Source: Solicoccozyma terricola
Lineage: Eukaryota; Basidiomycota; Tremellomycetes; Filobasidiales; Piskurozymaceae
Direction of reading: 5' to 3'
NCBI GenBank assembly: GCA_001600875.1
Contig: BCLD01000003.1
Span: 100,152 to 164,151 of the forward strand
Length of the DNA: 64,000 bases
In this document: positions 28,701 to 48,378 of the stretch, piece by piece
How the letters are laid out: each line of letters starts with the position of its first letter
Position numbering within the stretch: the first letter of the stretch is position 1
Translations under genes and position numbers: made by a program
Notes under the pieces: generated by a model
Databases searched by the model: none
The model's input: only the letters and a program-made list of their open reading frames with translations
Told to the model about the DNA's origin: nothing

Positions 28701-29718
28701 GACTTGAAGATCGCCATCAAGGAGGTTTCGCATTAATTTCTGATGAATATCGGATGATGGCCTTGGTCCGGAATCAGTCAGCAGTTCGCTGGCGAAGGCC
28801 TTCTCTACGATATCAAGATACGACTTGCCGAGTCGGCGAATAAGCATGTCGTGTCGTGTGCTGATCCTATCCGATGGGTAGTACCCCTGGTCGACAATGT
28901 CGACCTAAGTAACTCTCGTCGGATCGGCTCTGACTAATATGCGTGGTCCTGCGAATGTTGGTTTCAGACCTTGCCTTGATACGCCGGCGATATAATAGAC
29001 TAGTGTTGGAGTGGAGCGACTTGGATAGCTAGTCCGATGGAGTCGACTGTAATGGTCGAACGCGAGAATAGAGGTATAGGTATAGATAGCTATGTCTCGC
29101 TGATTACAGGGTGAAAAGAGAAAGAGAGGGAACAAACAGCCTCAAGAACGGTCGCTTTATATATGGCTTTGGAGACAAGGGAAAGTGGCAAAAAGGGAGT
29201 CGATATGGTCGGGCGACGCCAGGGCGTTATTGACGATGTGGGAATCACTAGGTGGGGTTGCAGGTCCGGCATCCCCGCGTCGTCAATGCCGCGTCGGCAT
29301 TGCGGGTCTGGCGTTGACGGTCTGGCATTGCCGGGTCGGTAATGCCAAACGAGGTTCGAGCTGGCAACTAGGTTCGAGCTGCGTCGACTCGGTCGGGAAT
29401 CCCCTTGATTCGTTACATGTCGGTTATTATGTATGGAGGCTTTTTGGCATCTACTAGGCTGTCTATCACCCGCTTCTGAGCGTTGGTGAGTGGACGAGGA
29501 ACACCAAAGCTAGAAAAGGCGACTGTCAGGAGTGCCTGTAGTGTCCCTTTCACGAAGTCAGTCCAAGTGGGCAGGGGATCCGGTCCCGCCAGCGAGATTC
29601 CGCTGCCGGCAAACAGGCTTTCATGACGACCGGAAGCCAAGTCTCCATCTCGATCCAGCAGCATGATTTCGCCGCCGGCGAACTCTACGTTCAATTTGGG
29701 GACAGCTCGCTTGCTCAT
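25748..29718 (-). pseudogene. SIR2-like-domain protein gene, split by a solo LTR
   Basis: Exon blocks: 29718-29418, then (after the LTR) 28846-27211, 27137-26558, 26497-26326 and 26271-25748. Removing the LTR and one target-site copy leaves 3213 coding bases, exactly 1071 codons, so the frame was intact before insertion. The N-terminal half carries SIR2-like motifs: FAGSGISLAG with PLPTW (nucleotide-binding loop), IITTNFDLRLENAL, KVHG (candidate catalytic His) and VTVLGHSGAEL. The remaining about 650 residues are largely helical and charged, with no domain I recognise. SIR2-like domains of this type act as NAD-consuming effectors in prokaryotic defence proteins (DSR, Thoeris ThsA); an immune or incompatibility role in a fungus is inference. 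As it stands, translation would stop inside the LTR just after residue 100. Start chosen at the MSKRAV methionine; an in-frame upstream ATG at 29925 exists. Confidence 0.75.
28852..29417 (-). mobile_element. 566-bp solo LTR with 5-bp target-site duplication
   Basis: On the minus strand the element starts TGTAACGAATC (29417) and ends GCACACGACA (28852), i.e. TG...CA. It is flanked on both sides by CGACA (plus strand TGTCG at 28847-28851 and 29418-29422), a perfect 5-bp duplication typical of LTR-retrotransposon integration. A TATATAAAG promoter-like box lies at 29155-29167 on the minus strand. There is no internal coding region, primer site or second LTR, so recombination between LTRs has removed the element body. 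Short CGGCAATGCC-like repeats occur in its first third. Confidence 0.9.
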
Positions 29719-31061
29719 TTTTCTGACAAACAACCCAAAGTATGTGTATGATGTTGGAAGGTTCTTGAACTTCATTTGTGGACGAAGACGCCGCCGCCAG
29801 CTAAGGATGCATTTCCGAGCAAACCAGGTTAGCCCTTTGGCAGATCTCCCCGCCTCATATAGACATCCTGGCTGAAGTGGAAACAAATTCAAAGCGGTAT
29901 CAGCGTAGAAATCCCTCTGTAGCATGCCCTGTTCGGAATCTGGACCTTCGTCGTGATGGTTATGGAGCCTGATGTGTCGTCGCGGAATCAGCTACTCTGC
30001 CGCATGAAACCAGATTTCCTCTTCAATTCACCGAGGCTTCTCTCTCGGAAGAGTAGAAAATAGCTTGCGAAGGGCACGAGTTATGCCTCAGTGGCTGTCA
30101 GTGGCTGTCTGCCACCGCCACCATATGGGCCATTTGTACAAGTTCTACTGTCAGCATCCAGCCAGCTGATCATGACTTCGCCGCGAGACGGGGATGGAAA
30201 CAACTCCTCACCTTGTGAACAACGCAGCGCTGTTCAGCACCGCGCGGTTTCTCGCGAGAACCTCGGCCTCACCCTCTTTCTGCTGTTAGATGACGGTGTC
30301 TATGTGGACTAGACAGCCGACACGCATCACAGAGCCTTCATTGTGCATGTTCAAAATGGCCTGGCTAGTAGAGTAGCATCTGCGGCGGGAAAAATGGCTC
30401 CCATGATCTCTGTAATTGCCAAACACTGCCACTGTCATTTTGCGCTATATTCGTGGCTTGCATCCGCCTGAGTTATTGGAAACGGCAATCGACTCAAGAG
30501 GTGGCATCTGGGATCCTGAATTCTCCTACATGCTGACGCATGAGGATACGGCAGTCTAGAACATTCCAAGCCGTCAGGTGAATGGCAATGCTCCGTTGGG
30601 CTATTTGAAGTTTGTTAGTGAGAAGGCCAGTTCTGTAAGGAAACGACGTATCTATCTTGTTGCAATTAATGAGGTTCTCGATGTAGTCCTTTCTTTTCAA
30701 ATGAAGCAGGAGATCGTGGAGAGGGATGTTGAGTATTGCTGACGTTTACAGTTTTGGCATGGTGTTGTGATCCAGTTGTCACTCATAGTGCACACGATGG
30801 GTATGTCGGAACCACAGTCAAATGACTGTATTTGACTGTGGAAGCGCCCCAACCCTTCTCCATCTCAACTCCTCGGAACCCTCTATCCTCTCTTTTCTCA
30901 TCCCTGCATCATTAAATCCATTGTGCTGAGATAGAGAAGGATAGTTCTATACCTATATCATAATACAACAGGGTAGTACCCTCCTTTATCTGTCCTGAGG
31001 CATATCGGATCTGAATTAAACGGTCAATACCGCAGTACAACGACGCAAAACCCAGAGCCTA
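29719..31061. other. Intergenic, no confident gene
   Basis: One minus-strand frame (30700-30494) with the segment LLTNKLQIAQRSIAIHL could be a helical-repeat relic, but it is short and isolated. The rest, including an AT-rich 3' region at 30900-31020 next to the DUF6603 gene, shows no coding signal. Confidence 0.45.
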
Positions 31062-34000
31062 CTACAAAAGATCCACCCTAACCGTCATCAACGGTGCCGC
31101 CATGATATACGCATAGAAGCCCTGAATCAACTTTGGCGGCGCCTGGCCGTTTAACGCCACCTTCTTGTCTGCGGAAGTGTTCACCCCCCAGCCCATAGCG
31201 GACACCCACGTATCTACTGTGGTCTGCTGAGCTCCCATACTATCTGGAGCTGCCCACAGCTTTGGAACCTGAGTCCACTCGTCCGGAGCCGTAGGAACGA
31301 CAGGGTACCAACTCGCGTTCACCGTATCCATCGGGCCAAATGTTGGCTCTTCCGTGAAGACGTCCTCGGACGAGGCGTCAACCACGTTGAACTTGGTGAT
31401 GGGTTCCGTTGTACCGTCAGGATAGTAAGGCTTTGGTGCAATCACCGTGAGGCCGAGCATGTGAGGGATGGTGGTGTCTTTGAGGTCGGTGTTGCTGAGC
31501 AAAGGCCCAGCAAAGTTGCCGGATTTCATGGGGTCTTCACCGTCGTTGTCTGGACGTGGGAAAAAAATTCGAGTCAATAGATTACCCTCGACGAACGGAA
31601 CTCTCACGCCATTCTTGCAATGAGATATATGGTGCCTTGGGGGACGAACGGGAGGAATGGGAAACTTACATTGTCCCCAAATGGCACTCGGAGCATTGCT
31701 GATGGATCTCTCAGCCCTGAATCCAGCGACCGTGATATCTGTCCCCTCTTCGTGTCTGACCACCTCAATTGTCATGACACTAGTCAATTCTCCTGTCAAC
31801 TCCATAGGTCGGCTGTAGATCAACTGTCCACTACCATCCACTGAAGCACCTTGCTCGATGTCGGCGTGCCCGATGACGAACGGCGATGTGAGAGCGAACT
31901 CGAACGGGCCAGCACGCACATTCCAGGATTGCGTCGTAGGCTGTGATGTTTGACTTTGACTGGCGGACGTAATGAGGCCTCCCGTACAGCTGATCTGGTG
32001 CGCATGGTCTCTCACGTCGTCGCCGGGTGTCGGGACGATGGGATCGACCGGCGGTGCCGCAAGTAAACCAGCTGCAGCCGAGGGTGCGCCAGCACCCAGC
32101 GCCTTCTGAGAAGCAGCTTGCTGGACGAGAAGGTTGTAGAATCCGATCAGATCGACAGGGTCGCTTCCTGAATGCTGGTCGCCAAAGTATATGTCGAATC
32201 CAAACACCCAGAAATCGACGTGGACGTATCCATGCACCGGCGGGCCTTGTATGTACAGCTCGGCGCCAATATCGATGTTGATATGGATGGTAACAATCCA
32301 CAAATCGAGCGTGAAGCGGACACCGACATCAATGCCGACGTCACCTATGAAATAGAATGGCTGGAACTTTACGAGGAAATCGGCGTAGGCGTCAAAATAG
32401 GCGTAGAGCGGGTCCAGGTCGAGCGATGCCATCAGCTTGCCGCCACCCATGCAAACTTTGGGTGTAAGTGCAAAGTAGGCCTCGCCGGTAATCTTGAGGC
32501 TGTCGTCCAGTGACCAGGAGATTGCAAGGCGCGGAACGGAGGGATAGTAGGAAGGAGCGTGGAACTGAGGGTGATATCCGCCAATGGTGAAGACCCAGTC
32601 CCCGGCATGCTGGTTGTTCCCGAACCAGTATCCTAACGCAAAACCGCCCGAAAGATGACAGGCTGGATTGAGCACGAAAGATGTCGGTGCAAGTTGGCCT
32701 TGAATGAGCATCGAACCCGCCCCAAAGTCGACAGTGGCAACCAAACCAAGTTCTACGTAGATGAATTTGAAGGCCTCCGGATCTGGTGGGAAAACGGCGA
32801 CGACGTCGGCGAATATACCAAGCTTGATGTCAGATGAAGCAAATTCCACCACAATGACTGCATCGACATTTAGCAACTTGAAGGCGTCGACATTAAGACC
32901 GGCTGCAAGCCAGATGCTGCCTTTCTGCGCGGTGATACAACCCGTGGAAGGGTCCAAAAGATTGTTGATTGTATCGAGTGGCGTCGCGCCGATACCTGTC
33001 TTGGCAATGAACGGGAATGAGGTGACGGTGTCGATGGTGGGAAATCGCACGTCAGAGTTGTAACCAAATCCACCGCAGATTCCATTGATGTCTGCAAATT
33101 CGAGCTCTATGAGTGGTCCTTCCAGGAGACAGTAAAGGGCGACTGTCTTGTATCTGTCGTTGCCCACGACGATGAGACCGTAGCACCCGGCAGCCATGAA
33201 GAGATACGGTGTGAATGAGACAACCACTCCTCCGAGGAATAATTCGGAGCCATCCGGTGCCTTCGTGTGCTCAAAGAGACCGGCGATTGTCAATGGCGGC
33301 TGTGAGAAACCAAAGCCAAGGCCGCTAATGGCCGGCTGAGGAATGGGGAGATTGCTCAGACTCGTTCCTGGCTGGCTAAAGTCGAGATCGAGCCCGAAGC
33401 CCATCAAGTCGAGGGAGATAGGTCCAAGGGCAAATGTAGCATCCAGCAGGATTAGCAAGTGTCCGCTCTTGAACTGGAGTCCAATGTTGGAAATTGTCAG
33501 CGGACCAAACGTCTTTTTCATGCTCGCCATCGAGACGTCGTTCCCTGGAGCAGAATCAGCTTTAGGCAGAGCGCCGCGAAGCGCAACATTCGGCGTTTTA
33601 GACGATTCAGATTGGAACAAGTGGTCGAGAACAACCACGAGCTGGTCTTTCTGAAGAGCCACAACATTGAAATGGAGACCCACGGCGTAGATGGGGTCGA
33701 GACCAACCTGTTTTGCGGGTCGGACAGTTTCCTTCCACAAAAACGGTGGCGTGATAGGTTGCTTTGGATCCCGCTTGAGGATGTCTTGCTCCTGTCGCAG
33801 GATACCTGCATTTGAGTCGTCCTGGACGTACAGGAAGAATAGCTCGTCGTAAGGCTGCCTCAGCTGATCTACGACAGGCACGCGCGGTATGTCGTCGGAG
33901 AGCCCGCTCACGAGGGCACGGAAGATGCGCTTCGGCTGTTTCCATCCTACAGCCGTGTACTGCAGGAACAGCATATCAAAGTCACCCAGCTTGATGTCGA

Positions 34001-37000
34001 CTTGCACGACGGTATAAGTCGTGGATTCCTCGCTGTCTTTCGCTTTGATCGTGGTTTTCCACACCGCCAAGTGAAGACCTGACCCTTCGGAGAGCAGTTT
34101 GATGCTACCGATGAAGTTGGGCAGCACGACATCCTGCGAAAAGTAGCCTAGCACGCTGTTGATGGTCTCTGTCACGTCCGGGGCGATCAAGTCGGCAGTG
34201 AAAACCCAATGATCGGGCCAATGCTCGAACGTGAGAGTCAGCTGCATCTTTCCCAGCAACAGTATGCCATCGAAAAGGAAATGTTTGCCACCACCCTTGG
34301 CGTCATAGTCGTAGAGGAGATCGAGCTCCTGTATCTCGATGTGCTCGATAAGGTCCATGACACCATTCTGAGACTCGGCTTCAAAAAAGCTCAGCAGGTT
34401 GCCGACCACGAGGTCGCGCACGCACGCTTCCATCTGCCAACATGCACTGCTTGCGCCATCGATTCCAGAGCCATAGTACTTGACTGCACCACTGAGCACA
34501 ACCGGTTCAAAGTCTGTGGAATCACGGCCATACAGATCGATACCAAAGTTGAGTGCGAGCCGGAAATCTTTCGAGGAGAGGGTGTATTGCAGATCAAGTC
34601 CCAGTTGGTCGAGGGAAACCGTCGGAACGCTTGCGGTTCCCGGATCACCGGCGGTCAAAACAGCGCAGAACTCGACCTGAGTTTGTTTGTTCGCTCCAGA
34701 AATGGTTTGCTTTAGATCGAAGCTCAAAGTTGTCACCATAGGTAGAATGCCGTTGGGGACAACCGACCCAAGGACGTCGGGAAGAAGATCGGCTAAAGCT
34801 ACCTGACTCTGAGCCGTTGAGCTGACGGGATGGAAGAGCTGGTAGTCTTCGAAGTCCGGCATCATAGATGGTGTCAATGGAGGCGGAAGGATACCGGTCG
34901 ACATCGGACCTTTGTTGGCGGTCAGCTTTTCAGCTGGTGGCAATGAGAAACTTGGAAACTTACTTGGCCAGAGGGATGCAGACAGTTCTTTTGAGGTTTG
35001 GGAATAGGAGAATGTGAACAAGAATTTGACGTCCTTCCCAAACGGATCTTGGACCTCGAAGTCCAATACCATCGACTGAATGGCAAACGACGATTCTAGC
35101 TTCAGCCGGACGCGCCGCGGTAGCGGTACCCAGCTATTGTCAGAGGGCAGCAGATCCGTGATGCCTGTTGGAATGTGCAACTTCTCTTCAATCCAGCTCA
35201 GGTAGCGCTCCCACTGATTGCGATCGGCATTGCATTGCACAATGACCTGAATGCTGCTGTCTTTGAAGTTGTAGATTAGGGTGGCGCCAAACGCAGTCGC
35301 CTGCTTTGGATCTTCGCTTGCCAGCATGATTTGTGTTGTGAAGATCAACTCCGACGTCTCTTCTAAGGAGAACGCGTTGTTGCCTATCCCAAACGTTCCC
35401 GATTTTCGTGTAATAACCTGCGCACTTTGCACCGCCAGTCCGACGTGTGAGAAGACGGCGGAATTGAGCGCAGTGACATCTGTTACGTCAAATGCTAGGC
35501 GAAGCGTGGCACAATACTGCTGGTTAGGCGTGAACCACACCGCATTTCTGTAGCCAGGCTTGCTGGTATCGGACAGCTCCAACGGCAGGTCAATGCTTGA
35601 CCCTCCGAAGACTGGAACCTTGATTTTTAAGAAATCGCAGATGTCGCTCAGCTTGATGCCACTGACGGCGGCAACTTCTCCCAACCCCAGGATAAGCATG
35701 TTGCTGGTGTACAAGAACGGTGGCGGAGGGTCAGTTGGTGGGTTAACAGGCAATGTAGCGCCTTGCATGTTGAAGGCCCAAGGTACGTTCGTGGTGGCGA
35801 AAGGGAGGGTATGGCCCGCGAACGGGAGAGCACACGTCATGCTAGTGATATTTGAGCTGTCACCGGTGATGCTGAGGCCCGACACACTGAAATTGACCGC
35901 CAGCCACTGGGAGAACTCGTCATTGGATAGGATTGCAGCCACCGGGGTGCCAATGGATGGGAAGGCCTCGACTCCCATCCAACCACAGTGAAGGGCCGAG
36001 AGGAAGTCGCCGAGGACGCCAGTCACTGCGGTAGCATGTGGAAAACCAGGTTGGAATGTACGTGCGCTGCAGTAAAAGCTGCCTGTGGTGGGAATTGGTG
36101 GTTGAGTGATGAGGACGGCGTGTGGAATAGACGCCAGGGGTCGAGAAGGTGGCGGAGAGGTGATGAAACGAGACGGCGGCGACACCGCCAAGGAATCCAT
36201 ATCCGCATCATCATCACCCTCGTCCTCGTCGCTATCGCTCTCAGCAAAGTCGAGGAGCGTGTCAATCCTGACATCGTCCGACGACATGAGACTCAAAGGC
36301 CAGTCACACGGTGCGAAGGTCGCCCAGCCGGTCGAGAGCGACGAGGAGCTGCTGCTACTGCTGCTGCTGCTACTGCTGCTTGATGTGTCGACGACGGGGG
36401 TGGCCACATCTGGGACATACTCAATTTCGCCGTCGGCATCACCGAGGGTGCTACGCACTCGGACGTACTTGATGCGTTGTCGCGGAGTAAGCGCAACTGC
36501 GCTGTGGCCGTAGTATGTAGCGGACTCGGCGTGGGACCCAACTGGGTAGTACTGGCCGCGGAGCGGGGAAACAAAGTTCCACATGGAGTGAGCGACTGAG
36601 AAGATAAACTGAAGCTTTTCGCGCCACTGATCGTCGGAGAATTTCTTTCCGGTATACTGCAGGTATGGGTTCATGTAGCAATTGGCGTCGATGGACGACC
36701 AGACACCAGTGAAGTCATTGAGGAAGGCCGTGCCCGTCGCATCGAATGCGGCTGTCGCTATCACGGACATCTGGCCGGCCTTCTTCGGCCTTTTCTTGAC
36801 CGGGATAATGTAACTCCCGTCGAGGCGGCGGGCGAACCAGTACGGGTAGCAGGTGGGGTACATTTGCACCAGCGGCGATTTCGTTGGGAGCGAGTTGCGG
36901 TACATCCGGTACGCAGCGAAAAAGAAAAGCAGCTCCCATCCTGTGTCGTTTGCGTGAAAGCGAAGACGTCAGTCTCTACATGCATCACCGTAAGAGCCTG

Positions 37001-38131
37001 CCCAGGGTCCTCAAGATCGGGAATTGTGGGGCTACAAGACTCACTTGGATGTCCATTCGACCCCCCAGCGGACACGACGACGTTGTCAGGAGAGAACTTC
37101 ATGAACATTAGCGTCGGGAACGAGTACGACGAGCCATGATGGCTCGCCTTGACCGTCTTGACGGTACGACCGAACAAGGGATTCGCACGGGACCAGTTGA
37201 CGACGCCCTCTTCCGTCTGATACTCGGCGTCACCAGCGAAATAATGCGACATTTGGACGGCAGGATTGGTAGCGGTAGGTGGCCACAGGATCATACACGA
37301 GATCGAGCTCGCATTGGTGGCGCTGTCGTGATGGTTGACGACACCGAGGGTGCGGGCTGCGGGAGTGAGGAATACTGCTGCGGCAGCTACGCAGTACATG
37401 CCTGGCTCGCCGACCGGGATGGCATGGTGGGCCACGAGTAATTCGGGGGTGTTGAGGCCCGGCACTACGCCAGCCGGAACCTTGAGATTTCGGAAGAACT
37501 CGGTACCCAACAAGTCTGTGTAGTCGAGCTTTGCGATGCGTGCCAGCTGCGTGATGCCCGGAATATTCTTCAACACAAGCTTGAGGAACAATTTACTCGC
37601 GTCGGCGGCATCCTCTGTCTTCTGGAAGTCTGACCCGTGAATTTTGACGACGTTCCTCTTGCCCTTGCCAGGACCCCTCTCCCAGTTGGGACAATAGAAC
37701 GTTGTCTGCGGGTCAGCGCGTCCTGTACCATTGTACTTGAAGAAGCTGATCTGGATATCATCGGGTACTACAGGTGTGCCTGCATCCTTCTTGCCTTTGA
37801 TCGTCTTCTCTACATCCAATGTTAACAGCTTGGACAAGCCAGTCCAGTGATCCTCATCCCAATGGGTGACGATCACGGTATCAAACGCTGTTACTCCACC
37901 TGCAAATTCATATGTGTCTTTCAACCCCGTGACGGTACTCTGCAAGTACACTGGCGAGCCATGTTCGTTATCACCGCCGTCGATGAGCACTGCTTTGCGT
38001 ACGAACGGCTTTGCGGCGTTGACGGCGGAGCCATCGGGTTTCGTGCCTGCGGTCTGGATCCACAGATGGACGGCCGCGTCTCCTACGCCGACATTGATAT
38101 GGAGCGATTCGACGTGGTAGACGTTAGACAT
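31062..38131 (-). CDS. Giant fusion: metallo-beta-lactamase fold (ComEC-type) plus DUF6603-like region
   Basis: Exon 1 (38131-37045) encodes an MBL hydrolase related to the ComEC/Rec2 type: INVGVGDA near residue 12, HWDEDH (His90, Asp92, Asp94, His95) as metal ligands, FAGDAEY, SHHGSSY and NGHP. A GTGAGT donor after GHP, a CTGAC branch-like site and a CACAG acceptor remove 104 nt and bring exon 2 (36940-31062) into frame, giving 2321 residues; without splicing the MBL frame and the long frame merely overlap. Residues about 364-540 continue the MBL region (WELLFFFAAYRMY), a polyserine linker follows (about 549-565), then about 1750 residues with many beta-strand repeats. Residues about 1540-1950 resemble DUF6603, a large uncharacterised domain of fungi and bacteria. 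An extra in-frame intron near 31600-31668 is possible. No signal peptide or membrane helix is seen. Substrate and function are unknown; phosphodiester or nucleotide hydrolysis by the MBL part is inference. Confidence 0.75.
36348..36381. repeat. AGC-type trinucleotide run encoding the polyserine linker
   Basis: GCTGCTGCTACTGCTGCT-like run on the plus strand. On the minus coding strand it gives about 15 consecutive serines (AGC/AGT) between the MBL and beta-rich parts of the giant fusion. A slippage-prone flexible linker. Confidence 0.85.
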
Positions 38132-38198
38132 GGTGGGTGAAGGCGATAGAAGGCATGGGTAAAGATGGAGAGCAAGAGCGGATCTGGGGATGGATGGA

Positions 38199-38216
38199 TG
38201 CATGCATGCATGCATG
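38199..38216. promoter_or_regulatory. (ATGC)n palindrome in the shared promoter of the MBL-DUF6603 and membrane-protein genes
   Basis: ATGCATGCATGCATGCAT, self-complementary over 18 bp, 68 bp upstream of the MBL-DUF6603 start and about 137-200 bp upstream of the divergent membrane-protein start. The only notable feature in this 222-285 bp divergent promoter. Confidence 0.35.
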
Positions 38217-38352
38217 GGATCGCTGCTCATTCAAGGCACGCCGCCCTGCGGATCCAACGGAAGATCCTTCCTGGGAAACGCCACCGTGACAAATAGGTAC
38301 CCGCGCCACGTGGCAGGAACATGATTAGAATATTTGGCACCACTCTCGAGGA

Positions 38353-39234
38353 ATGGGACAGCCAGCATCCAACACGGATCAGCAACATCCATCACCTACC
38401 AACCCACAACCAGCAATGCTCCGCACGTCGCCGCTCCCCGTGCTGCACGCCCTCCTCCTCTTCGCTCTCACTCTCACCTCCTTCGTCTGCATCCTCGTCG
38501 CACTTACAAGCACGCACTGGGCCTCACAAGCAGTCTACTCTGCACCAGTACCACAGACGCTCGCCAATCGTCTCTACCAATGCACCTCGTATCGCGGTCC
38601 ATTCAGAGACTACCCCTGCCTGCTCAGTGGCACGACGTATGCCAACCACTACTACTCTGGCGCATGCTTCGATGCTGATCGGCGGTATGGTGGGTGGTGG
38701 TGTCAGCAGATCGGTGTAGGGCAACATCTCCTCATCGCCGGAACGGTCTTCACGGGAGTCGCATTTTTGAGCTGCATTGCCGCAGTCGTTGGTGTCCTCG
38801 TTAGGGCCACAGGGACTCACTGGACGAGGAAAACAAGGAGGCATAAGTCAAGAGAAGCAGAGGTTGACGGTCAGAACGGTGTTGTAAACGACGACAACCT
38901 CGCTTCTCATCATAGTAATCGCTCTCACACCGCGAATCAATCCGTCATTAACCTCTGGCGCTGGTTCACCCGGCTTATGATGGTCCTCGCAATCGTCATG
39001 ACTGCATCAGGCTGCCTCATCATCACGCAGACTCTCGTCAACCAACAATCATACGACGGCAATTATACAACAACGCTACCAGTACCAGTTCTCACCGATC
39101 ACTGGGTGATGAGTAGGGCTGTGGTCATTGGGAACATGGGCTGGTTACCGACTTTGATTGCAGTGTTGTGTTTGCCAGCGTCGGGGACGATAGTCTTCCC
39201 AGGACACCGTGGCGATAGGGAAAGTAGACTTTAA
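38353..39234 (+). CDS. Four-helix (claudin/SUR7-like) membrane protein
   Basis: An intron-free frame of 293 codons; a second ATG at 38416 starts MLRTSPLPV immediately before the first membrane helix (272 aa) and may be the true start. Predicted helices: LLLFALTLTSFVCILVAL; IAGTVFTGVAFLSCIAAVVG; MMVLAIVMTASGCLII; and MGWLPTLIAVLCL. The first extracellular loop has STHW, several tyrosines and cysteine pairs (YQC...YPC and GAC...WWC), as in the claudin/SUR7/PalI superfamily of four-helix proteins. A basic, Ser/His/Asn-rich loop separates helices two and three, and the tail is short. It is divergently transcribed from the MBL-DUF6603 gene with which it shares a promoter, suggesting co-regulation. 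Cellular role unknown; a membrane anchor or scaffold for the island is inference. Confidence 0.7.
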   Translation: MGQPASNTDQQHPSPTNPQPAMLRTSPLPVLHALLLFALTLTSFVCILVALTSTHWASQAVYSAPVPQTLANRLYQCTSYRGPFRDYPCLLSGTTYANHYYSGACFDADRRYGGWWCQQIGVGQHLLIAGTVFTGVAFLSCIAAVVGVLVRATGTHWTRKTRRHKSREAEVDGQNGVVNDDNLASHHSNRSHTANQSVINLWRWFTRLMMVLAIVMTASGCLIITQTLVNQQSYDGNYTTTLPVPVLTDHWVMSRAVVIGNMGWLPTLIAVLCLPASGTIVFPGHRGDRESRL

Positions 39235-39818
39235 CGGGAGGGTCTCGGAAGCGCTCGGTTGTTTGATGTGAGATTAGGCGGGATCAGGGACAAGGTAACA
39301 TCGTATGACATTTATTGGCGTTATAGGTTTCCACTAGTCCGATTGTGATTTAACGGCCCAAGACACATGACCCAGGTAACTGTTGCAATACAGATGCATC
39401 CCACCTATGGCATTCGACTGTTCCAAGCAGGGCCTCCTCCAGGTGCTCAGTAGAACGATCCGTTCGGGATCATATGGCGGATGGTTTCAATAAATACAGA
39501 CCCGGTCCTTGCGAGAAAGAGAAATGCAAACATCCCGGGACCATTATTGAAGCGATGCCGATATGAAGTGATGAGAACGTGCCGAGTTGTATATGACTCC
39601 AAGCCAAATAGAAGATGGACCACAAAAGAACCAACAAGTAGGATGATACCCGCAGCTAAAGAAAGCGATCACATTCTGTTACAAGCCGAATCCAATCCCC
39701 TGAAGAAGACTGTAGGAAAGCCAAATAAGAAAACGGAGAAAGCCAAATTACTCCTCCCATACTCCACCCCCCCCCCCCCCCCCAAAAACAAAAGCGGTCT
39801 CCAAACTCTCACTCACCA
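39235..39818. other. Convergent 3' region with a poly(C) run
   Basis: Sits between the 3' ends of the four-helix gene (plus) and the 1176-residue gene (minus). Contains an uninterrupted run of about 15 C at 39768-39783. No gene; presumably holds both polyadenylation regions. Confidence 0.5.
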
Positions 39819-42800
39819 TCAAACCGGTCCCATATTCACAGTCAGGGTCGAGTTCTCCGCAGTCACCGTAAATCCATCCACGATGTACACCTCTTCGACT
39901 GGGACAGGCACCAGTGTCTGCTCCTCGAAAAACCCGGCAATGGTCACTTCGCTCAGTAGGAATCCCATCCCGGCATCCGGCTCGAGTACCAGATCGACCC
40001 CACCACTCGTTGTTCGTGGTAGCAAGCTGATAACAACGGTGGATCCGTCGTCGCTCAACGAAACCAGTGGATTCCAGCGCAAGTTCGACAGCATCCGCGA
40101 TGTGCCGGTGCGTTGGGTAGCGAGCACCGAGCCGGGAGTCGGAGTCGCGTGGAGCGAAGGAGTGCTGTGCAGTGCAGAACCCGAGACAGGCAAGTAGATA
40201 TTCAGCGCTTGCATACGGAAACCCTGTGTGGCACCCGTCACAAGAACGGAGAACACGAGGTCGACCGTGTAGCCTGCGTTCGTCGGGAGTTTGGAAGGGT
40301 CGTGTCCGAGGGCACGGCAGGATAGCTGGCAGGCTGGGCTAGGAGCGACAGGAGGCGGACCGCCGGTGAGGAGGTGGCCTGGGTGCGAGGATGAAGAGGT
40401 GATTGGTGGTCGAATGTGCGGTGGGCCTAAACGCCGGGTGTGAGGTGCCGGCAGGGGTTTGCAGGGTGCTGGAGGAGTTGCGAGTTGGAACGTGGAATGC
40501 AAAGTTGCGTGAGAAGCAAGGTCATAACGAACCTCTTCGTCTTTCAACAGTTCCGTCGATAGTTTCAGTCTGTGCGAGTGTAGGGCCCGTGCCCGTTGTG
40601 TGGTCGAGTTCCGATCCTGCCTCTTGAGCATCCCGAGTCCACCTTGTGTCGCCACCAATGGGCTGGTGCTTACAGGTCCCACGCTGCCAGCGATAGGAGA
40701 CTCACCAAGGCTTGCCATCTTGACTTCCGGTTTCGAAAGATCGAAAGTCATTTCGTACATCGGATCGTTCAACTGAATCCCCATCAGGGCTGAAGACTCG
40801 ACCTTGTCGATGAACGTTCCAGGTGGCATGAATGTCCCGAGTATTGTCAAAATTTTCGTGGCGTAGTTGGGCAGGATGATCATGCGAGACTCCCAGTCGA
40901 ACACGGGGCATACTGGATTGTCCTCAAGTGTCCACATACCCTGTTCTGGCAGACGAAGATGGCGCTCCTCGCCGGTAGGCTGGACCACCGTGGTGTAGAT
41001 CTTTTGATAGGCGACCTCGAACTCCGTCTTCGGGACAGGTTTGGATGAATCGGGTCCTATGCTCGCAGCCGCTGCAAAACACTGCTGGTGTGGTGGCTGA
41101 CTGATGGTGAGGGAAGTCAACAACCCATCGCCCGGTTCCCGATCCAGTAACACGAGCAGAACCTCTTCGTCAATGTTCACCTGCCGCAGAACAGAGGCCA
41201 TCTTTTGCTGGATCGGTGGTGTGGACGGTCGTGGAGCTTTGACGATAAGGTCTGGGAACTGCTTGACGATGACGGACCGCAGCAGGAAGCCGAACTTGGG
41301 TGCCTGTGGAGCCCAGCCGATTTCTGGGTCTACCGTCGTCAAGTAGTCGTGCAATGTGGTCTTGATGGCGGTGCGAATCTGATCGTCGTCCTGCTCGAGG
41401 TGCACGCAGATGCTAAGAGCGCCATCGATCAGCGCATCTACCCAGTTGGGATCGATTGAGAAGAAACGCAGGGTTTCGTGTGGAAGATGCGATGGATCCG
41501 TGATCAAGTAATGTGCTGGGACACCGACGAGAGCCATACGGTCGAGCACCCACTTCAGCATCAGAGCCCAGTCTGTCGAGTACGGGTGATTGTGTTCGTT
41601 GTAAAAGCGGTACTCTCCTACCGGGTGATCAAGACTTGATGCCAGCGTACGTGCCACATCTGTTGCCTTGTCAAGGAAGCCATCGCGAATGTCGGGGCTG
41701 AAGAAGGATAAGTCCCGCTTAGGCGGTGGTTGACGCTTCCACATGCGCAATGGATCCATCCCTTCCGAGTCCTCGCCCGTATGCAGAGTCGCCAAGAGGT
41801 GCACATTCTGCTTCAGGTTGGCAAATACCTCACCTGGCGTATTATGAACACTCGCCAATGCATTCGCCTTGGCTACCTGCAATCCTTGCGCATGGATAGC
41901 GCCACGAATGCGAGCAAGAGCAGCAGTGAAAGCCTGGTCGGCAATAGCCATCGTCTTGCCGAGCTGCCACGCAAGGCTATAGGAAACATCCATCAGACCC
42001 GTGGTGCGGTCGAGGATATGCAAATCGGTGTCGAACGTGGACTGGAATTCCAGCTTGCGATCGATCTTGGTGGGCACGAAAGGGCCACGGACGAGTGCGA
42101 CGGTCTGTTCGCCTGTTCGTACGCGGTACCGGGATAGAGTATACCCGTCCTCAAGTCTTTGACCGACGCGTTTGGAGAGCTGATCCTTGGATTGTAGCGG
42201 CTGGTAGACGTCGGGAGAGACGCGCAATGGCTGATATGATGTGCCCAGGTTCGACATGGCGTCGAAGAAGTTGAGCGAGACGGGAGGAAGACATTGGTAC
42301 GTCCAGCTGTACAAAGAACACAACGCGACGAGAGGTAGGGTGGAATCCATGCTAAAGTGGCCCTCGACGCCTTCGATCGAGACCAGGTGAACGACAACTG
42401 GGGTGGGCTGTTTGATTGTCCACGGTCCGACGCGATGGGCCACTACCACACTGAATAGCTGGTCCACCTCCTCTTCGTAGCTAGCGCCCATTCCCTCGGT
42501 GTTGATATTCCGAACATGAGCCAAGTATTTGTACCGCTGGACATCCGCCTGTGTCTGCGTCGTGTCTTTCGCGCCATCCGAGTTGTACTTTTGAACCATC
42601 GACTTGAAGAGCGTATTCGGAATAAAGATGAAGTCGGCGTTGGAGGAAGCAGTGTCGGGAGGAATAGGGTCAGACGGGTCCGCGATTGGTGCGAGGATGG
42701 AACCATTCTTCTCCATCGTCTGTACGTCGCTGATAGCCATGTTGACAGCCAGCGTCGGAGTCTGAACAACAACCGTTGGGAAGATCTTGCTGGGTCCCGC

Positions 42801-43349
42801 TAGTTGAGATGGAAGTAGACGAAGTTCGTCTTGCGTGAAGACCAGCAGCGCGAGCCATGGTACCCGATTGCGTTCCGGCTTCGGCTCGACGATGAGACTG
42901 GCTGCTCTCTCCCACGGGAGATGCTCGTCGTTGAATACGACGTGCGGGACGATATTGAGATGGTCTCCATGGCCTTGTGGAGGGTAGACAGTGTGGATGT
43001 CACCAGCAGGCAAAGAAAATCTAGGTGCGACGACCTCAAAGCCCTGGGTTGAAGTGAGGTCCAGTGGAGCTGATTTAGACCCGGCTGGCGGTGTGATATG
43101 TTGCCGCACGCTGACCGTATGAGATCCCGCGATGAGACTCGGTGCATACAGGGAGAATATCTGCTCCTCTCCGGAATTGAGCTTGGGTGGACCGTCGTCG
43201 GTGGTTGGATCATCGCGCAAGGAACTGTCCAAGTGAGCCTCGGCGTGCACTTGGATGTGCGTGCTGTCGGTCCATTGAGCATGCGACTTCCGGAGGACGA
43301 GATGGCGAGGCGAGTCGAATCTGACTGCCGACCGCCGTGCACGTCCCAT
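39819..43349 (-). CDS. Giant uncharacterised soluble protein (1176 aa)
   Basis: A single open exon of 1176 codons from the ATG at 43349 (MGRARRSAVRF); an upstream in-frame ATG at 43577 is less likely because it would add a low-complexity Pro/Ser leader and a 12-base C run. The N-terminal about 250 residues look beta-rich with motifs FSLYAPSLIAGSHTVSVRQH, VYPPQGHGDH, HVVFNDEHLPWER and PWLALLVFTQDELRL. The middle part has VALVRGPFVPTKID and DVSYSLAWQLGKTMAIADQAF (helical), then LRFFSIDPNWVDALIDGAL. The C-terminal third is beta-rich, with a Pro/Ser/His linker before it. No signal peptide, membrane helix or nuclease, protease or ATPase motif is visible. I recall similar LPWER and RGPxVP-containing proteins, all uncharacterised, in bacteria. 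It is transcribed divergently from the 1457-codon gene, 655 bp apart at most, and is part of the same island. Function unknown. Confidence 0.75.
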   Translation of the reverse strand: MGRARRSAVRFDSPRHLVLRKSHAQWTDSTHIQVHAEAHLDSSLRDDPTTDDGPPKLNSGEEQIFSLYAPSLIAGSHTVSVRQHITPPAGSKSAPLDLTSTQGFEVVAPRFSLPAGDIHTVYPPQGHGDHLNIVPHVVFNDEHLPWERAASLIVEPKPERNRVPWLALLVFTQDELRLLPSQLAGPSKIFPTVVVQTPTLAVNMAISDVQTMEKNGSILAPIADPSDPIPPDTASSNADFIFIPNTLFKSMVQKYNSDGAKDTTQTQADVQRYKYLAHVRNINTEGMGASYEEEVDQLFSVVVAHRVGPWTIKQPTPVVVHLVSIEGVEGHFSMDSTLPLVALCSLYSWTYQCLPPVSLNFFDAMSNLGTSYQPLRVSPDVYQPLQSKDQLSKRVGQRLEDGYTLSRYRVRTGEQTVALVRGPFVPTKIDRKLEFQSTFDTDLHILDRTTGLMDVSYSLAWQLGKTMAIADQAFTAALARIRGAIHAQGLQVAKANALASVHNTPGEVFANLKQNVHLLATLHTGEDSEGMDPLRMWKRQPPPKRDLSFFSPDIRDGFLDKATDVARTLASSLDHPVGEYRFYNEHNHPYSTDWALMLKWVLDRMALVGVPAHYLITDPSHLPHETLRFFSIDPNWVDALIDGALSICVHLEQDDDQIRTAIKTTLHDYLTTVDPEIGWAPQAPKFGFLLRSVIVKQFPDLIVKAPRPSTPPIQQKMASVLRQVNIDEEVLLVLLDREPGDGLLTSLTISQPPHQQCFAAAASIGPDSSKPVPKTEFEVAYQKIYTTVVQPTGEERHLRLPEQGMWTLEDNPVCPVFDWESRMIILPNYATKILTILGTFMPPGTFIDKVESSALMGIQLNDPMYEMTFDLSKPEVKMASLGESPIAGSVGPVSTSPLVATQGGLGMLKRQDRNSTTQRARALHSHRLKLSTELLKDEEVRYDLASHATLHSTFQLATPPAPCKPLPAPHTRRLGPPHIRPPITSSSSHPGHLLTGGPPPVAPSPACQLSCRALGHDPSKLPTNAGYTVDLVFSVLVTGATQGFRMQALNIYLPVSGSALHSTPSLHATPTPGSVLATQRTGTSRMLSNLRWNPLVSLSDDGSTVVISLLPRTTSGGVDLVLEPDAGMGFLLSEVTIAGFFEEQTLVPVPVEEVYIVDGFTVTAENSTLTVNMGPV

Positions 43350-44004
43350 GGTGCTGTAGCAGAAAGGGGGGGGGGGGGTTGAGAGAGAAAGGCTGTATGG
43401 ATGGTATGGACCGACGATGGAAGCGCCGAACTTGGGTGGTGGTCGAAGGGATGCTGCGCAGGAACACTCCGGGCCACGTGACTCGGGGCCGATAACATTC
43501 CCAGGGCGGAGGCAGATTGGTAACGCTACGGCGCCACATGGCTTTGTCTCGGAAACATTGTCACGGGCCACTGTCACTCCGTGCCTGGGCTGGCAATTCC
43601 TTCAGCTTCCATCCGTCATGCAGTATTTCCAGATGTCGACGTGCTGCAGTTGCACTTGGCCATCATCGTCACCATCAACATCACCATCAACATCACCATC
43701 ACCATCAGCCAGTCACATCTAGGCACGTAGGTCGGATTGATATACTGCTGCGTCCGCCCGTCCGCATGCAAGCGCTGATGAGGAAACAGGCGGTTATTAG
43801 CAGCACATCAACCATCGGAGCAGTTCCCTCCTCGCTGCTCCATCGACTGCCCACATCGTCCTCCTCCACTTCATAGCCCTCCTACTCTCTTTGACGACCA
43901 AGCCAAGTCCCAATACATGACCTGCACGAGGTTCATTTGGGTAAGTACGTCAATGTACACACCAAGTTGAACGCGCGAGGAAAGCTCACCTGTGAAAAAC
44001 CTTT
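43350..44004. promoter_or_regulatory. Bidirectional promoter between the two giant genes
   Basis: Only upstream sequence for the 1176-aa gene (minus) and the 1457-codon gene (plus). Contains a 12-base G run at 43366-43377, a CCACGTGACTC segment (E-box CACGTG at 43475-43480) and a CATCAC/CATCAA microsatellite at 43667-43713. No clear TATA box. The shared arrangement suggests co-expression of the two proteins. Confidence 0.5.
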
Positions 44005-47000
44005 ATGGCGCACCTGAACCCTCACCCTCACTTCAGTTGGTGTAGAACTTCACGGATTCGACGCCGTCGAGGCCTACGTGAAAGCATCATGGCGGCTTCT
44101 TCACCTACGAATGTCTGTTTGCCTATGCAAGTTCACGCCTTTGTGCTCAACGAAGCCGTCGCAGACGACCCTCAGGCAAAGATAGCTCCAATCACTCAGC
44201 CCAACTACACTTTCCTCCGCCTGAGCCAACAAATAATCCAGAGTGATATCCACGACCATGTTGATCTCCACTACACCAGTCCGCATCAGAACAATAGTCG
44301 TGTTACGGATCTAGGGACCGGTCTTACGCTGAATCAGCGTTTAGGCGTTTACATCTCGTGGGTCATACCACGTGCTTATCGATCTGGAACGGCGGCGACA
44401 ACCTCCAGCGGTGCAGAGTCTCGTAAACAGCAGCAAGGGTTCCCGACCGGTACAGCAGGTACACCAGACTACTCTGCCCCTGATTTCCGTCCGGTCCCGA
44501 CGAGATGGCTCGTGGTGCGACATATCGATATGGACAGCATTGTCCCCGCGGTCACGCAGACGGTCGCCCAGCAAGTACAGTGTCGTGCGTGGGTGATTGA
44601 GAGTGATCGCCAGTGGAGTCTGGATGACGATGCGTTACGGGGGAAGGATCTACAGGTCGATTACTCCCCGTTCGTGGCTCCTTCTCGAAATAACGATATG
44701 AGCTCCGTAGAGCAGCAGGCTGAGGTGTTTATCGGGAATAAGACGGATGCGGTGTCATGGACAGAGGATACCGGGACGAACCCACCGAAGCGGATCGCCC
44801 CTCTTTCACTTCTCAGCTCCTCGAACCACCTCTTTGCGGACTACCAGCCGCATAACACGAATGTGTTTAGCATGCTGGATGACTTCAAATACACGGACGA
44901 CGCGGGTAAGGATCAGATAATGCAATATGCCAAGGCGAGCTACTACGTCATTGGATGGCATAGTGGCCCGACCGACGACCCGTTTTATATCAAGTCGCAG
45001 GTGACGACACAGCGATTGCGTCTCGATGCCCTCAATATGGTCGTGCAAGGATCCGGCGACGGGAATGGACCCGTGAATAGTTGGCTTGGAAGTGGGGACC
45101 CCTCGCGATCCCTCTGCCACGGAACTGTCTATGACGTTTTGTGGGACGCCGCGCATGCGCCTACAGTGGTGGCTGCACGTGAAGCTGCGCAGCAACTCGC
45201 ACAAAACAAGCCCAAGATCCCCGTTGCCGTTGGCGCCACTGCCATGGACGCACTTGTAACCTACGTTTCTGCACACAAGGACTCCGACACTGGAATCGTC
45301 GGGCAGCTCGAAAAGGACCTTTGGAACATTCGTACTTTGCTGCTGGCGCAAGAGGATGGCGCCGATCCCCGTCTTGAAGCGAAAGATGTCCTTTTCAACT
45401 TGGGTTTCGAGCGGAGCGATGGCGGTATCGCATGGCATCGCAGTGGAGGTGGAGCCGGCGGAGGAGGTGACGGTGTGCTACCATCCGCAGCCCAGATCCC
45501 CAATCTGGCTCTCCTAGACCAAACTCAGGCGGCCCTCGATATCGCCAAACGAACAGCACAGGCTTTACAGTGGGAACTGTTCGCTCTGTGGTGGAAGTTC
45601 GTCAGCGGAGCGTTCGGTGACCCGACAGACCCTAAGAAGACAGCCCGCGTGAAGAATGAGCTCGTGCTGCCGCTAGTCAAACGGATCAATACTCTCCTCG
45701 GGCTCAAAAGCGGGGCCAGTGCTCCACCGGTCAATTCAATCCCGTGGTTGCAGAGCGAGGTCACACGACTCACCAATCCAAGTGGGGTCAACCTACCTGT
45801 AGAGGCGGGATCCGCCCCGCCCTTCTTCACGCCCAAGGATCCAACGCTGATGGTAGGCGGCGTCGCTCCAGGTTGGACGAGCGATTACCTCGACAAGCTG
45901 GCTGTACGGCTCGACTTTCAAGTGCCGAGCTACCAAGACAATCCTGATGCCTTGTGGAGCGAGTTTGATACGCCTAACGGAGCGAATGGACTGGTTCAAA
46001 AGGTGGTGAAGAAGCTTCCATCGGGACTGCAAGTAACGGCTATTTCATTGCTGCGCGAATTCAAATCGCTGCGGACTTCTGTGGTCGCGAAACCGCCTTC
46101 GACGGGCTGCTACCTGCCCCTGTACCACGATCAAGGACCGGTGAATCCGGATCCTAACGCTTCTCCACCCCCAGCCACGGATCCTTGGCGAGATCGATGG
46201 AATGGGCAGCCGTGGTTCCCTCTGTTTGTGGAGTGGGAGGCAGAATACTTCCACATTCCGTTCGGAGACTTTGAACCGATCGAAACGCAGGAAGAAGACT
46301 CGGTATCTATCTATCCGGTGCTACGGTATCAGATCCGAAAGGGCGTGGAGCTCATGGGCAACGTTCCTGATAGACGAACCGTCTCCGGCCGTATCCTCCT
46401 GCTCCCGCAGCCCAATTTCTCCCTCAAGGCCGCCATTCAACAGTTAAAGCGTAACATGGGCCCGCTTCTGGCGGAATACATCCCGGCGAGCGAGCTGGCA
46501 GTTCTTCTGAGAGACATCGCGGAGCTCCCGTATCTTTCACATCCTCTGACAGGGTTGCGAGACCATCTGGTAACTCGTGTTCAGGGCACGCACATCAAGA
46601 CCACGCAACGTCCTCCAGGAGAGGTCCTCACGGTCATGAAAGCAGCTAGCGCTGCCAGCGCAGCCATCAACATCGGTGATGACGAGATCATGCTGCAAGG
46701 CAGTCAATCGGACCTGACACCATATGGTCACAGTGTCGGAGCGGTCGCTTATCCGGAATCCAAAGCCTTCCCGCCACTCAAACCGGTCACACATGGCCAA
46801 ATGCGATTAACCGCACTCAACATCATCGACAAGTTTGGCCAGGCCATCTGTGCGCTGGACCCAACTCCGGTGACGGCTGCGAACCTACCCCATGTCGCCC
46901 CTGCTCTTGCTGACCGATACGCATGCCAAGAGCTCTCTCCAGGCGTGCCGAACGTAGTGGATGGTGGACTCACACCTCCCTTTTGCGAATTCACACAGCT

Positions 47001-48378
47001 TCCTCCGGGCATCAATCAAGCTGCTCGATTGAACGCCGCCTTCGTGACTCTCGATGCACAAGACAGTACCTGGCGTCCAGTCAAGGTATGGGAGAATCCG
47101 CTATGGGGTTGGATCGTGGTCAACTATGTCGAGTCTTCACTACAACTGTTCCTTCCGGACGGCACCTTCTACCGAGAGGTCGTGCACGGGGGTTTCCAGA
47201 GAGATACTGTATCACCGGCATGGGCGCCATTCCAGCGTCCTGATATCAAGCCAACTGACGCTCAGCATCAGTTGGACTTCCTCGTACACCAGCTCGCCAA
47301 CGAGGCCTACCTTGTGGCCTTCTTCGACATGCTCAACGGTGCCTTTGCTTGTCTCCCTGCTGCTCCGGACTCTTACGCTCAGTATATGAGCAGCATCATT
47401 GGTCGGCCGCTGGCACTGACAAACGTCGGCTGGGGCATCGAGCTCGCGGTGCCCCCGATGCAGAACGAGTCGACGATCAACAAAACGCCCGAAGACTGTT
47501 TTTTACTCTCCCCGAGCACACCAGTCCTTCCTACCGGCAACGACCCTCCGTCCCCTCTGCCACCGTCCACAACACCACAATACCCGTTCCGGCTGAAGAT
47601 GGGTGACGGTGAGCGTGCGTACGATGGGATGATCGGGTACTTTGAAACGGGCTCTTCCTCGACGTCGTTACCGACATCCATTCCTGGTAGCGGTTTCGAT
47701 TACTCCATCATTTACACCTACTTCCCAAGCGACAAGTCTCCATCCGCAACGACCATGATCTCCACCGCAAATTACCCACATCTGAGCGCCACATACGTTT
47801 CTCCAGACAGCCTGACCAACCCAAAGGATACGAACGGAGGCACGCAGTTGAAATCGCCGGCTGCGATATCAGCGGAGCGCAATGCTGCGCTGAACCTCTG
47901 CTCATGCATCGTCGATCCCTTCACGCCCATCCACTTCTACACGGGGATACTTCCCATCCAAACGCTGAAGGTTCCACCGTGGGCAATGGAGAGCGCAATG
48001 AACAAGATGACGGCTTTTTTCAAGGTCGGACCAGTAATGCTGCCAACGGATGTTCCCGTCTGGGATCCGAAGCAGGTGCTCACGGCGAGTGATGCACCAG
48101 ACAAGGTGTTCGTCGACGGTGTGACAGGTATCAAGCCGATGGTTGGGGTGCCGAGCGTTGGCAAGGCTGGCTGGGCGTGGTTGCAGCCGTATGATGAGGT
48201 GGTGGGCCGGCAGGGCAACGCGGCAGATAACGTTACGGTGCCTCCGCCGCCTTATATGGCAGTAGGCGTTGGGACGGTAGATTCGCGACCGCGGTTCGAG
48301 GATGCTCCTTATACGGTCGTAGAGGGGTATCTCCGGCAGACGGGTCCGTTGATGAACCCCGGGAAGGGGAAGGCATGA
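44005..48378 (+). CDS. Giant uncharacterised soluble protein (up to 1457 aa)
   Basis: One uninterrupted frame of 1457 codons. The ATG at 44005 starts a leader rich in His and Arg; the ATG at 44089 (MAASSPTNVCLP, giving 1429 aa) is equally possible. Conserved-looking blocks: VHAFVLNEAV, NQRLGVYISWVIPRAYRSG, RWLVVRHIDMDS and WVIESDRQW near the N-terminus; a helical middle with ALQWELFALWWKFVSGAFGD; WNGQPWFPLFVEWEAEY around residue 735; LTALNIIDKFGQ near 945; WENPLWGWIVVNYVESSLQL near 1030; and LDFLVHQLANEAYLVAFFDM near 1100. Its order of blocks (N-terminal strand region, FPLFVEWE, LNIIDKFGQ, WGWIVVN) matches, as I remember it, very long hypothetical bacterial proteins. No enzymatic motif, signal peptide or membrane helix is visible. 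Together with the 1176-aa protein it probably forms a functional pair. Function unknown. Confidence 0.78.
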   Translation: MAHLNPHPHFSWCRTSRIRRRRGLRESIMAASSPTNVCLPMQVHAFVLNEAVADDPQAKIAPITQPNYTFLRLSQQIIQSDIHDHVDLHYTSPHQNNSRVTDLGTGLTLNQRLGVYISWVIPRAYRSGTAATTSSGAESRKQQQGFPTGTAGTPDYSAPDFRPVPTRWLVVRHIDMDSIVPAVTQTVAQQVQCRAWVIESDRQWSLDDDALRGKDLQVDYSPFVAPSRNNDMSSVEQQAEVFIGNKTDAVSWTEDTGTNPPKRIAPLSLLSSSNHLFADYQPHNTNVFSMLDDFKYTDDAGKDQIMQYAKASYYVIGWHSGPTDDPFYIKSQVTTQRLRLDALNMVVQGSGDGNGPVNSWLGSGDPSRSLCHGTVYDVLWDAAHAPTVVAAREAAQQLAQNKPKIPVAVGATAMDALVTYVSAHKDSDTGIVGQLEKDLWNIRTLLLAQEDGADPRLEAKDVLFNLGFERSDGGIAWHRSGGGAGGGGDGVLPSAAQIPNLALLDQTQAALDIAKRTAQALQWELFALWWKFVSGAFGDPTDPKKTARVKNELVLPLVKRINTLLGLKSGASAPPVNSIPWLQSEVTRLTNPSGVNLPVEAGSAPPFFTPKDPTLMVGGVAPGWTSDYLDKLAVRLDFQVPSYQDNPDALWSEFDTPNGANGLVQKVVKKLPSGLQVTAISLLREFKSLRTSVVAKPPSTGCYLPLYHDQGPVNPDPNASPPPATDPWRDRWNGQPWFPLFVEWEAEYFHIPFGDFEPIETQEEDSVSIYPVLRYQIRKGVELMGNVPDRRTVSGRILLLPQPNFSLKAAIQQLKRNMGPLLAEYIPASELAVLLRDIAELPYLSHPLTGLRDHLVTRVQGTHIKTTQRPPGEVLTVMKAASAASAAINIGDDEIMLQGSQSDLTPYGHSVGAVAYPESKAFPPLKPVTHGQMRLTALNIIDKFGQAICALDPTPVTAANLPHVAPALADRYACQELSPGVPNVVDGGLTPPFCEFTQLPPGINQAARLNAAFVTLDAQDSTWRPVKVWENPLWGWIVVNYVESSLQLFLPDGTFYREVVHGGFQRDTVSPAWAPFQRPDIKPTDAQHQLDFLVHQLANEAYLVAFFDMLNGAFACLPAAPDSYAQYMSSIIGRPLALTNVGWGIELAVPPMQNESTINKTPEDCFLLSPSTPVLPTGNDPPSPLPPSTTPQYPFRLKMGDGERAYDGMIGYFETGSSSTSLPTSIPGSGFDYSIIYTYFPSDKSPSATTMISTANYPHLSATYVSPDSLTNPKDTNGGTQLKSPAAISAERNAALNLCSCIVDPFTPIHFYTGILPIQTLKVPPWAMESAMNKMTAFFKVGPVMLPTDVPVWDPKQVLTASDAPDKVFVDGVTGIKPMVGVPSVGKAGWAWLQPYDEVVGRQGNAADNVTVPPPPYMAVGVGTVDSRPRFEDAPYTVVEGYLRQTGPLMNPGKGKA

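Follow-up and report, generated by a model that had tools for sequence, protein, structure and literature searches.

The window analysed here, a stretch of 64,000 nucleotides of Solicoccozyma terricola contig BCLD01000003.1, carries between positions 31062 and 48378 an island of four genes, which encode a fusion of a metallo-beta-lactamase (MBL) domain with the DUF6603 family, a four-helix membrane protein and two giant proteins (hereinafter designated A and B). The locus raises the question of whether these genes form one system and, if so, what that system acts on. That MBL-DUF6603, A and B work together is close to certain, and the three-gene set, which recurs in soil bacteria and fungi, looks like one previously undescribed machine that recognises outside targets. 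This joins three protein families whose function is not known into one testable system crossing the border between bacteria and fungi. Joint action of the block had been proposed before any database was searched (hereinafter designated the sequence-only reading) and is upheld by gene order in bacteria, nested co-occurrence across genomes and gene fusions; the gene that says most about function, a bacterial gene with swapped tips (hereinafter designated D), had escaped that reading.

The core genes and their bacterial operon

The open frames, taken from the open reading frame (ORF) list, and the gene models of the island are as follows.

31062-36905, minus strand: DUF6603 open frame (ORF list)
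36761-38230, minus strand: MBL open frame (ORF list)
39819-43577, minus strand: A open frame (ORF list)
44005-48378, plus strand: B open frame (ORF list)
37045..38131, minus strand: MBL-DUF6603 gene, exon 1, ComEC-type MBL domain with motifs THWDEDH and SHHGS
36941..37044, minus strand: intron of 104 bp, GTGAGT...ACACAG, placed by comparison with homologues
31062..36940, minus strand: MBL-DUF6603 gene, exon 2, N-terminal extension and DUF6603 (PF20248, E 6e-150)
38353..39234, plus strand: four-helix membrane protein of 293 aa, in the island
39819..43349, minus strand: giant protein A, 1176 aa, start placed by homologues
44089..48378, plus strand: giant protein B, probably about 1429 aa from the second Met (open frame from 44005)

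All open frames named by the sequence-only reading are present at these window positions, in the divergent arrangement it described, and their giant size is genuine: stop-to-stop frames inside the island reach 1968, 1460 and 1260 amino acids (aa), compared with a maximum of 591 aa elsewhere in the window. The fusion it proposed is equally real, MBL and DUF6603 being exons of one gene in which removal of the 104-bp intron, the sole one found in the island genes by homologue comparison, yields a 2321-aa frame from a start at 38131. P0242, a homologue from Parachaetomium, has the identical spliced junction, GHPRWELL, and lengths over eight homologues run from 2144 to 2360 aa. Homologues place the start of A at 43349, for a size of 1176 aa; for B, the second Met (about 44089) is the more probable start, which would bring the size from up to 1457 aa to about 1429 aa, and most of the listed homologues have about 1300-1480 aa. 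The whole genome holds a single DUF6603 match, and one full copy of B with two fragments elsewhere. These fragments, at C5:99651-99926 and C2:571706-572242, one of them 89% identical over residues 475-566, are possible relics of further copies.

To find bacterial relatives, plasmids were searched with tblastn, which placed DUF6603, A and B as neighbours in Streptomyces and Embleya, DUF6603 with A in Paenibacillus polymyxa and A with B in P. sonchi; in the annotation of Streptomyces NBC_01276 and in that of P. polymyxa, whose B was recognised by alignment, the order is DUF6603, A, B. A fungal B profile gave 86 pattern matches on bacterial genomes; none held up, the likely cause being patterns drawn solely from fungal sequences. 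A mixed profile built from 5 bacterial and 5 fungal-side B proteins, seeded from the plasmid search, retrieved 173 B-encoding stretches from GTDB. The 80 top-scoring ones of these 173, found by B alone, contributed 78 loci, which together with 5 plasmids make up the bacterial set of 83 loci and bear out the earlier claim that the giant proteins have bacterial relatives. The GTDB loci come mostly from Streptomyces and kin and are therefore not independent; the hosts, mostly Actinomycetota, also include Paenibacillus, Hyalangium, Azospirillum and metagenome-assembled genomes (MAGs) named Chlorobiaceae, Gammaproteobacteria and Acidobacteria, a spread which, going by host names, we take to be about six phyla.

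With profiles for all three proteins, DUF6603, A and B follow one another in this order on one strand in 81 of the 83 loci, a count made over all reading frames because the script's gene calls are crude. The two exceptions are L007, which begins inside A at a contig end, and L004, where no DUF6603 lies within the 40 kb seen and B is split. An in-frame start codon of B falls inside the final 31 bases of A in 52/83 loci, and one of A inside the final 31 bases of DUF6603 in 37/81; by this spacing, the core genes are often close enough for coupled translation. Fusions link the set further: MBL with DUF6603 in fungi and in L082, A with D in L082 (E 9e-28), and B with D in L077 (E 1e-61).

Co-occurrence was surveyed in 296 genomes of the class to which L032 belongs, a sample chosen irrespective of these genes. 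DUF6603 is present in 31, A in 20 and B in 18, and the three sets are completely nested: A occurs in each genome with B (18/18), DUF6603 in each genome with A (20/20), and all three genes share one contig in 17 of the 18 B genomes. P values for this survey take no account of relatedness. Eleven DUF6603 genomes lack A and B at the survey threshold. Among the eight inspected, DUF6603 is accompanied in five (L101, L102, L105-L107) by a weak A-like gene and then by a further giant protein of about 1400-1600 aa, and in three (L100, L103, L108) by no A-like gene. A third, distant sub-type is made up of divergent DUF6603 loci whose A-like gene is weak (L101, L102, L104-L107). A second order, B, lectin-domain gene, MBL, DUF6603, A, is found in L094-L096 (sub-type II). 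L097-L099 place DUF6603 in open frames of 3384-3625 aa, with about 2000 extra residues, beside A and B.

Two further observations concern the surroundings of the operon. One family lies near it in 11/83 loci, and its representative (L065, 2663-4648) has hemopexin and WD40-like repeats. On a Paenibacillus plasmid (L003, 612-5607), baseplate-V-like and DUF4280 genes lie about 9 kb before the operon and are not recurring neighbours.

The MBL domain of the window protein, whose metal-ligand motifs are intact, has its own counterpart in bacteria. A separate MBL gene lies upstream of DUF6603 in 11/83 loci and in 3/3 loci of the second order; it is fused to DUF6603 in L082 and weak in L054. A bacterial MBL profile, built from 10 of the 12 MBL-bearing loci, matches the window protein (E 5e-14). 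Bacterial and fungal-side MBL (window included) align in hhalign at Prob 99.1 and E 9e-19. This agreement indicates that the fungal fusion corresponds to two adjacent bacterial genes. The fungal-side profile alone recovers 10/12 loci (all but L046 and L054), seeing the MBL of L041, L062 and L068 only at domain E 0.003 to 0.008. A motif scan finds 10 true MBLs among 32 DUF6603 frames of at least 1300 aa and 0/49 among shorter frames; an eleventh match of the regular expression, in L060, was judged false.

The core proteins themselves resemble little that is known. The window DUF6603 belongs to the family PF20248 (500.6 bits over nearly the whole profile; cut-off 27 bits), whose Pfam entry gives no function; here it belongs to a conserved system of three to five parts. 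Protein A has no significant match in Pfam, NCBIfam, PADLOC or PDB sequences, and B gives chance-level matches at most in the same collections; its matches to SUI1 (Pfam, E 0.096) and ASC/Ikaros (PDB sequences, E 0.14 to 0.61) were set aside as chance. No kinship is seen on comparing A with B, and a Pfam scan of the window A, B and DUF6603 finds no NTPase or nuclease domain. Foldseek returns nothing significant for the model of B (pLDDT 85) among solved structures (best E 0.81 in PDB) or in BFVD (best E 0.09); B was modelled as a whole rather than domain by domain, and a missing match is thus no proof of a new fold. DUF6603 is predicted to form a long amphipathic antiparallel beta-sheet, with apolipoprotein B as the nearest structural match and porins nearly as good; in the modelled strands of L080, residue alternation is 2.72 compared with 1.45 ± 0.22 in shuffles, a value that 0/2000 shuffles reach. 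No paper in the literature searched mentions DUF6603, PF20248 or IPR046538, and the matches listed for broader topics include no account of the system.

Two further features describe the kind of proteins these are. Glycine, proline or aromatic residues occupy 22/31 invariant columns in B, 13/20 in A and 11/11 in DUF6603, suggesting structural rather than catalytic proteins. Hydrophobic N-terminal stretches, a proxy for signal peptides (19 residues of mean hydrophobicity above 1.6 within the first 60 aa, from script-guessed start codons), are found in 0/83 A, 0/70 D, 2/83 B and 4/81 DUF6603 proteins.

Gene D, a candidate fibre

Downstream of B, 60 of the 83 bacterial loci carry D, which is the next called gene for 53 of 70 copies. 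Its two parts differ sharply in conservation: across 13 close loci (78 pairs), mean identity is 81% for B and 73% for the first 261 residues of D, compared with 4% for the D tip, and in 69/78 pairs of one clade the tips have no detectable similarity. Tandem D copies repeat the pattern within single loci, with anchors 80-88% alike and unrelated tips in L002, L010 and L019; in L005 the tips are 88% and the anchors 58% alike. Tandem pairs in L029, L044 and L056 give a mixed picture, their anchors being about 30% alike. Altogether, 64 D proteins fall into one anchor family and 19 tip families. Similar tips occur in 31 of the 102 pairs with anchors at least 70% alike, and only 1 pair combines like tips (at least 60%) with anchors less than 50% alike. 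As read from these sequences, a constant anchor with swapped tips is the make-up of a receptor-binding fibre, and it provides a handle on function.

Named domains in 65 D proteins comprise F5/8 type C (3), bactofilin-like (3), PLAT (1), fn3 (1), Peptidase_S74 (1) and FapA (1). Tail-fibre PHROGs match the D protein of L073, and a tail-collar (Collar) protein is encoded between B and D in L083. LamG is present in 3/3 second-order loci and a ricin lectin in 1; in L095 and L096, position and the LamG domain, not the D profile, identify the gene as D. These properties make it likely that D recognises external targets.

The set in fungi and its history

At E ≤ 0.001, B has 166, A 231 and DUF6603 211 homologues (about 8000 scored candidates each). 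Fungal comparisons were made on the best 120 homologues per protein, many of them metagenome proteins. Among the matches listed, named fungal homologues come mostly from Pezizomycotina, with the chytrid Spizellomyces in addition; the nearest named ones of B (Halenospora), like the Fung_rhodopsin gene of the window, would point to Pezizomycotina as the host lineage, while of three marker families tried on the genome, HET gave 3 matches and the other two, for which no control responded either, gave none. The DUF6603 matches include two Basidiomycota (Amanita, Gautieria) and one bacterium, Nonomuraea, and the B matches include one from a Carpinus assembly.

The three genes lie close together by locus tag in Icmadophila (MMC33_005352, 5353, 5355), Naviculisporaceae (V8F20_012449, 12448, 12446), Rhizina (RUND412_000427, 425, 426) and Glutinoglossum (FGG08_004951, 4953, 4950), and DUF6603 is the neighbouring tag of B, or the second tag away, in Parachaetomium, Spizellomyces, Tolypocladium, Bacidia, Aspergillus wentii and Bathelium. 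Judged by identical contig size, a proxy, the best 120 of each protein have 27 contigs in common for A and B, 18 for B and DUF6603, 12 for A and DUF6603, and 10 for all three. Over bacteria and fungi, the homologues are therefore not scattered without recurrent co-localisation, an outcome that would have refuted the sequence-only reading, although A and B occupy separate contigs in some fungi.

That reading had also counted the four-helix membrane gene as a member, a claim that finds no support: this protein has no counterpart among the recurring neighbours of the 83 bacterial loci, only sub-threshold matches in Pfam, and none in viral contigs. Exactly one gene tag separates A from DUF6603 in Icmadophila and Naviculisporaceae, where the window has the membrane gene.

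Midpoint-rooted trees were built for B, A and DUF6603. In each, a single clade unites the fungal-side sequences (30, 30 and 21, respectively) and includes no bacterium, with support of 0.86, 1.0 and 0.82. Besides the window, all 20 fungal-side sequences have fungal names in the DUF6603 tree; the B tree has 18/29 with fungal names, one from the Carpinus assembly and 10 without a name, and the A tree 17/29 named and 12 not. That all three trees show a single such clade would suit one joint transfer of the complete set, the simplest source being bacteria, and is compatible with the possible bacterial acquisition proposed by the sequence-only reading. The best bacterial scorers with the window differ, namely L082 (a gammaproteobacterial MAG with the MBL-DUF6603 fusion) for B, L031 for A and L083 for DUF6603, and thus indicate no single donor lineage. 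Bacterial B and DUF6603 match nothing in 50,697 phage records, and the A and B patterns nothing in viral contigs, so that no phage relic is evident.

Possible nature of the assembly

Our best inference, based on the few signal-like N-termini, the structural pattern of conservation, the swapped-tip fibre and an amphipathic sheet that would suit contact with membranes or lipid, is a particle formed by the core and either released or displayed. Because almost no signal-peptide-like hydrophobic N-termini are present, A, B and DUF6603 would assemble in the cytoplasm, and the large particle would leave the cell or reach its surface afterwards. D would be the fibre, its constant N-terminal part docking on A and/or B and its swapped tip, lectin-like in some loci, choosing the target surface. 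The one-sidedly hydrophobic DUF6603 sheet would meet the target membrane or hold a lipid or hydrophobic load, and MBL would serve as accessory hydrolase or be the load itself. Fungi would keep the core with MBL fused to DUF6603, perhaps with a D-type domain fused to A. That core, MBL and D make up one such assembly, a cytoplasmically built particle with target-binding fibres, is the reading we favour, at a confidence slightly short of even. Tentative and rather doubtful is the wider proposal of a new class of target-recognising particle, neither phage-tail nor Tc, present in six phyla or so, taken up once by fungi and kept in many lineages as a weapon or adhesion organelle. A target-binding particle, if that is what the system forms, would extend the range of tailocins, contractile injection systems and Tc toxins by a further kind, one carried by many fungi.

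Like tailocins and contractile injection systems, the operon has a receptor-binding-like fibre, a role for which D is a candidate through its conservation pattern and the S74 and tail-fibre profiles of L073, and hydrophobic N-termini are absent or rare. No tube, sheath, baseplate or ATPase family is found among the recurring neighbours of the 83 loci (families in at least 4/83 loci, within at most 8 called genes on each side, named by reading and, for some, by Pfam), and A, B and DUF6603 of L002 have no PHROG match. The window A, B and DUF6603 contain no TcA, TcB or Rhs domain (Pfam, E up to 1), and the Metarhizium Tc toxin complex is a different toxin (PMC13236867).

Several observations weigh against a fibre-bearing particle. 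The assembly is inferred from genetics. D is missing or unrecognised in 23/83 loci (in 6 of them the sequence stops less than 1 kb past B), no D gene is identified in fungi, and a named domain is present in a minority of D tips only. The C-terminal part of fungal A, which may be a D-type domain, aligns weakly with the bacterial D anchor (hhalign E 5e-4, Prob 31) and does not match the D domain of L082. A hydrophobic 19-residue stretch lies somewhere in 51/81 DUF6603 proteins, so that some could be membrane proteins. No cargo gene recurs but MBL (11 separate and 1 fusion in 83 loci). Listed A and B lie on different contigs in Peltigera, Sphaerosporella, Cladorrhinum and Trichoderma gamsii, implying that fungal co-localisation is frequent, not universal.

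An unlikely alternative is that the complex is directed at the producer itself, decorating its wall, spore or hypha, with D varying with the surface or with attached partners. Most loci come from Streptomyces and kin, which are hyphal spore-formers, and from fungi, and a minority of D proteins have lectin-like domains, as a coat would suggest; however, A and D lack hydrophobic N-termini, few B and DUF6603 proteins have them, and the patchy distribution (DUF6603 in 31/296 genomes of one class) is unlike that of a general coat component. Internal lipid handling, in which the DUF6603 sheet would be an apolipoprotein-B-like belt or conduit and A and B its scaffold, seems to us quite unlikely. In being long, amphipathic and antiparallel, the modelled sheet may resemble the apolipoprotein B belt and bridge-like lipid carriers; no sequence relation is seen, and porins match nearly as well.

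We consider it very unlikely that the set is an intracellular defence or conflict system with MBL as effector and the large proteins as sensors. The MBL shows weak resemblance to LmuA (E 3e-12), RT-associated MBL and Avs1a, sharing with them a ComEC-type domain with intact ligand motifs, and the patchy spread, plasmid locations and rapid change of one gene would suit defence. The NCBIfam match of the window MBL to Avs1a, however, reaches only 33.4 bits (E 2e-8) against a cut-off of 420, with ComEC/Rec2 at E 5e-4; the MBL of Avs1a has a STAND NTPase partner, and the window A, B and DUF6603 have neither NTPase nor nuclease domain. Moreover, the scanned A, B, DUF6603 and D proteins match nothing in PADLOC, MBL is not found in most loci, and those D domains that have a name resemble lectins or fibres, not binders of nucleic acid. 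That the genes merely travel together without joint function, as the separated A and B of some fungi might suggest, is hardly credible given the fixed order over about six phyla, the nested co-occurrence and several fusions.

Beside the island, the window encodes a SIR2_2-like protein (27210-28904, minus strand; E 2e-4, below cut-off), which could be a fungal conflict gene, and a second frame (29413-29925, minus strand) with a SIR2-like motif recognised by eye. Farther along, at 56573-58018 (plus strand), lies a protein with a Fung_rhodopsin domain (E 2e-48), a family typical of Pezizomycotina.

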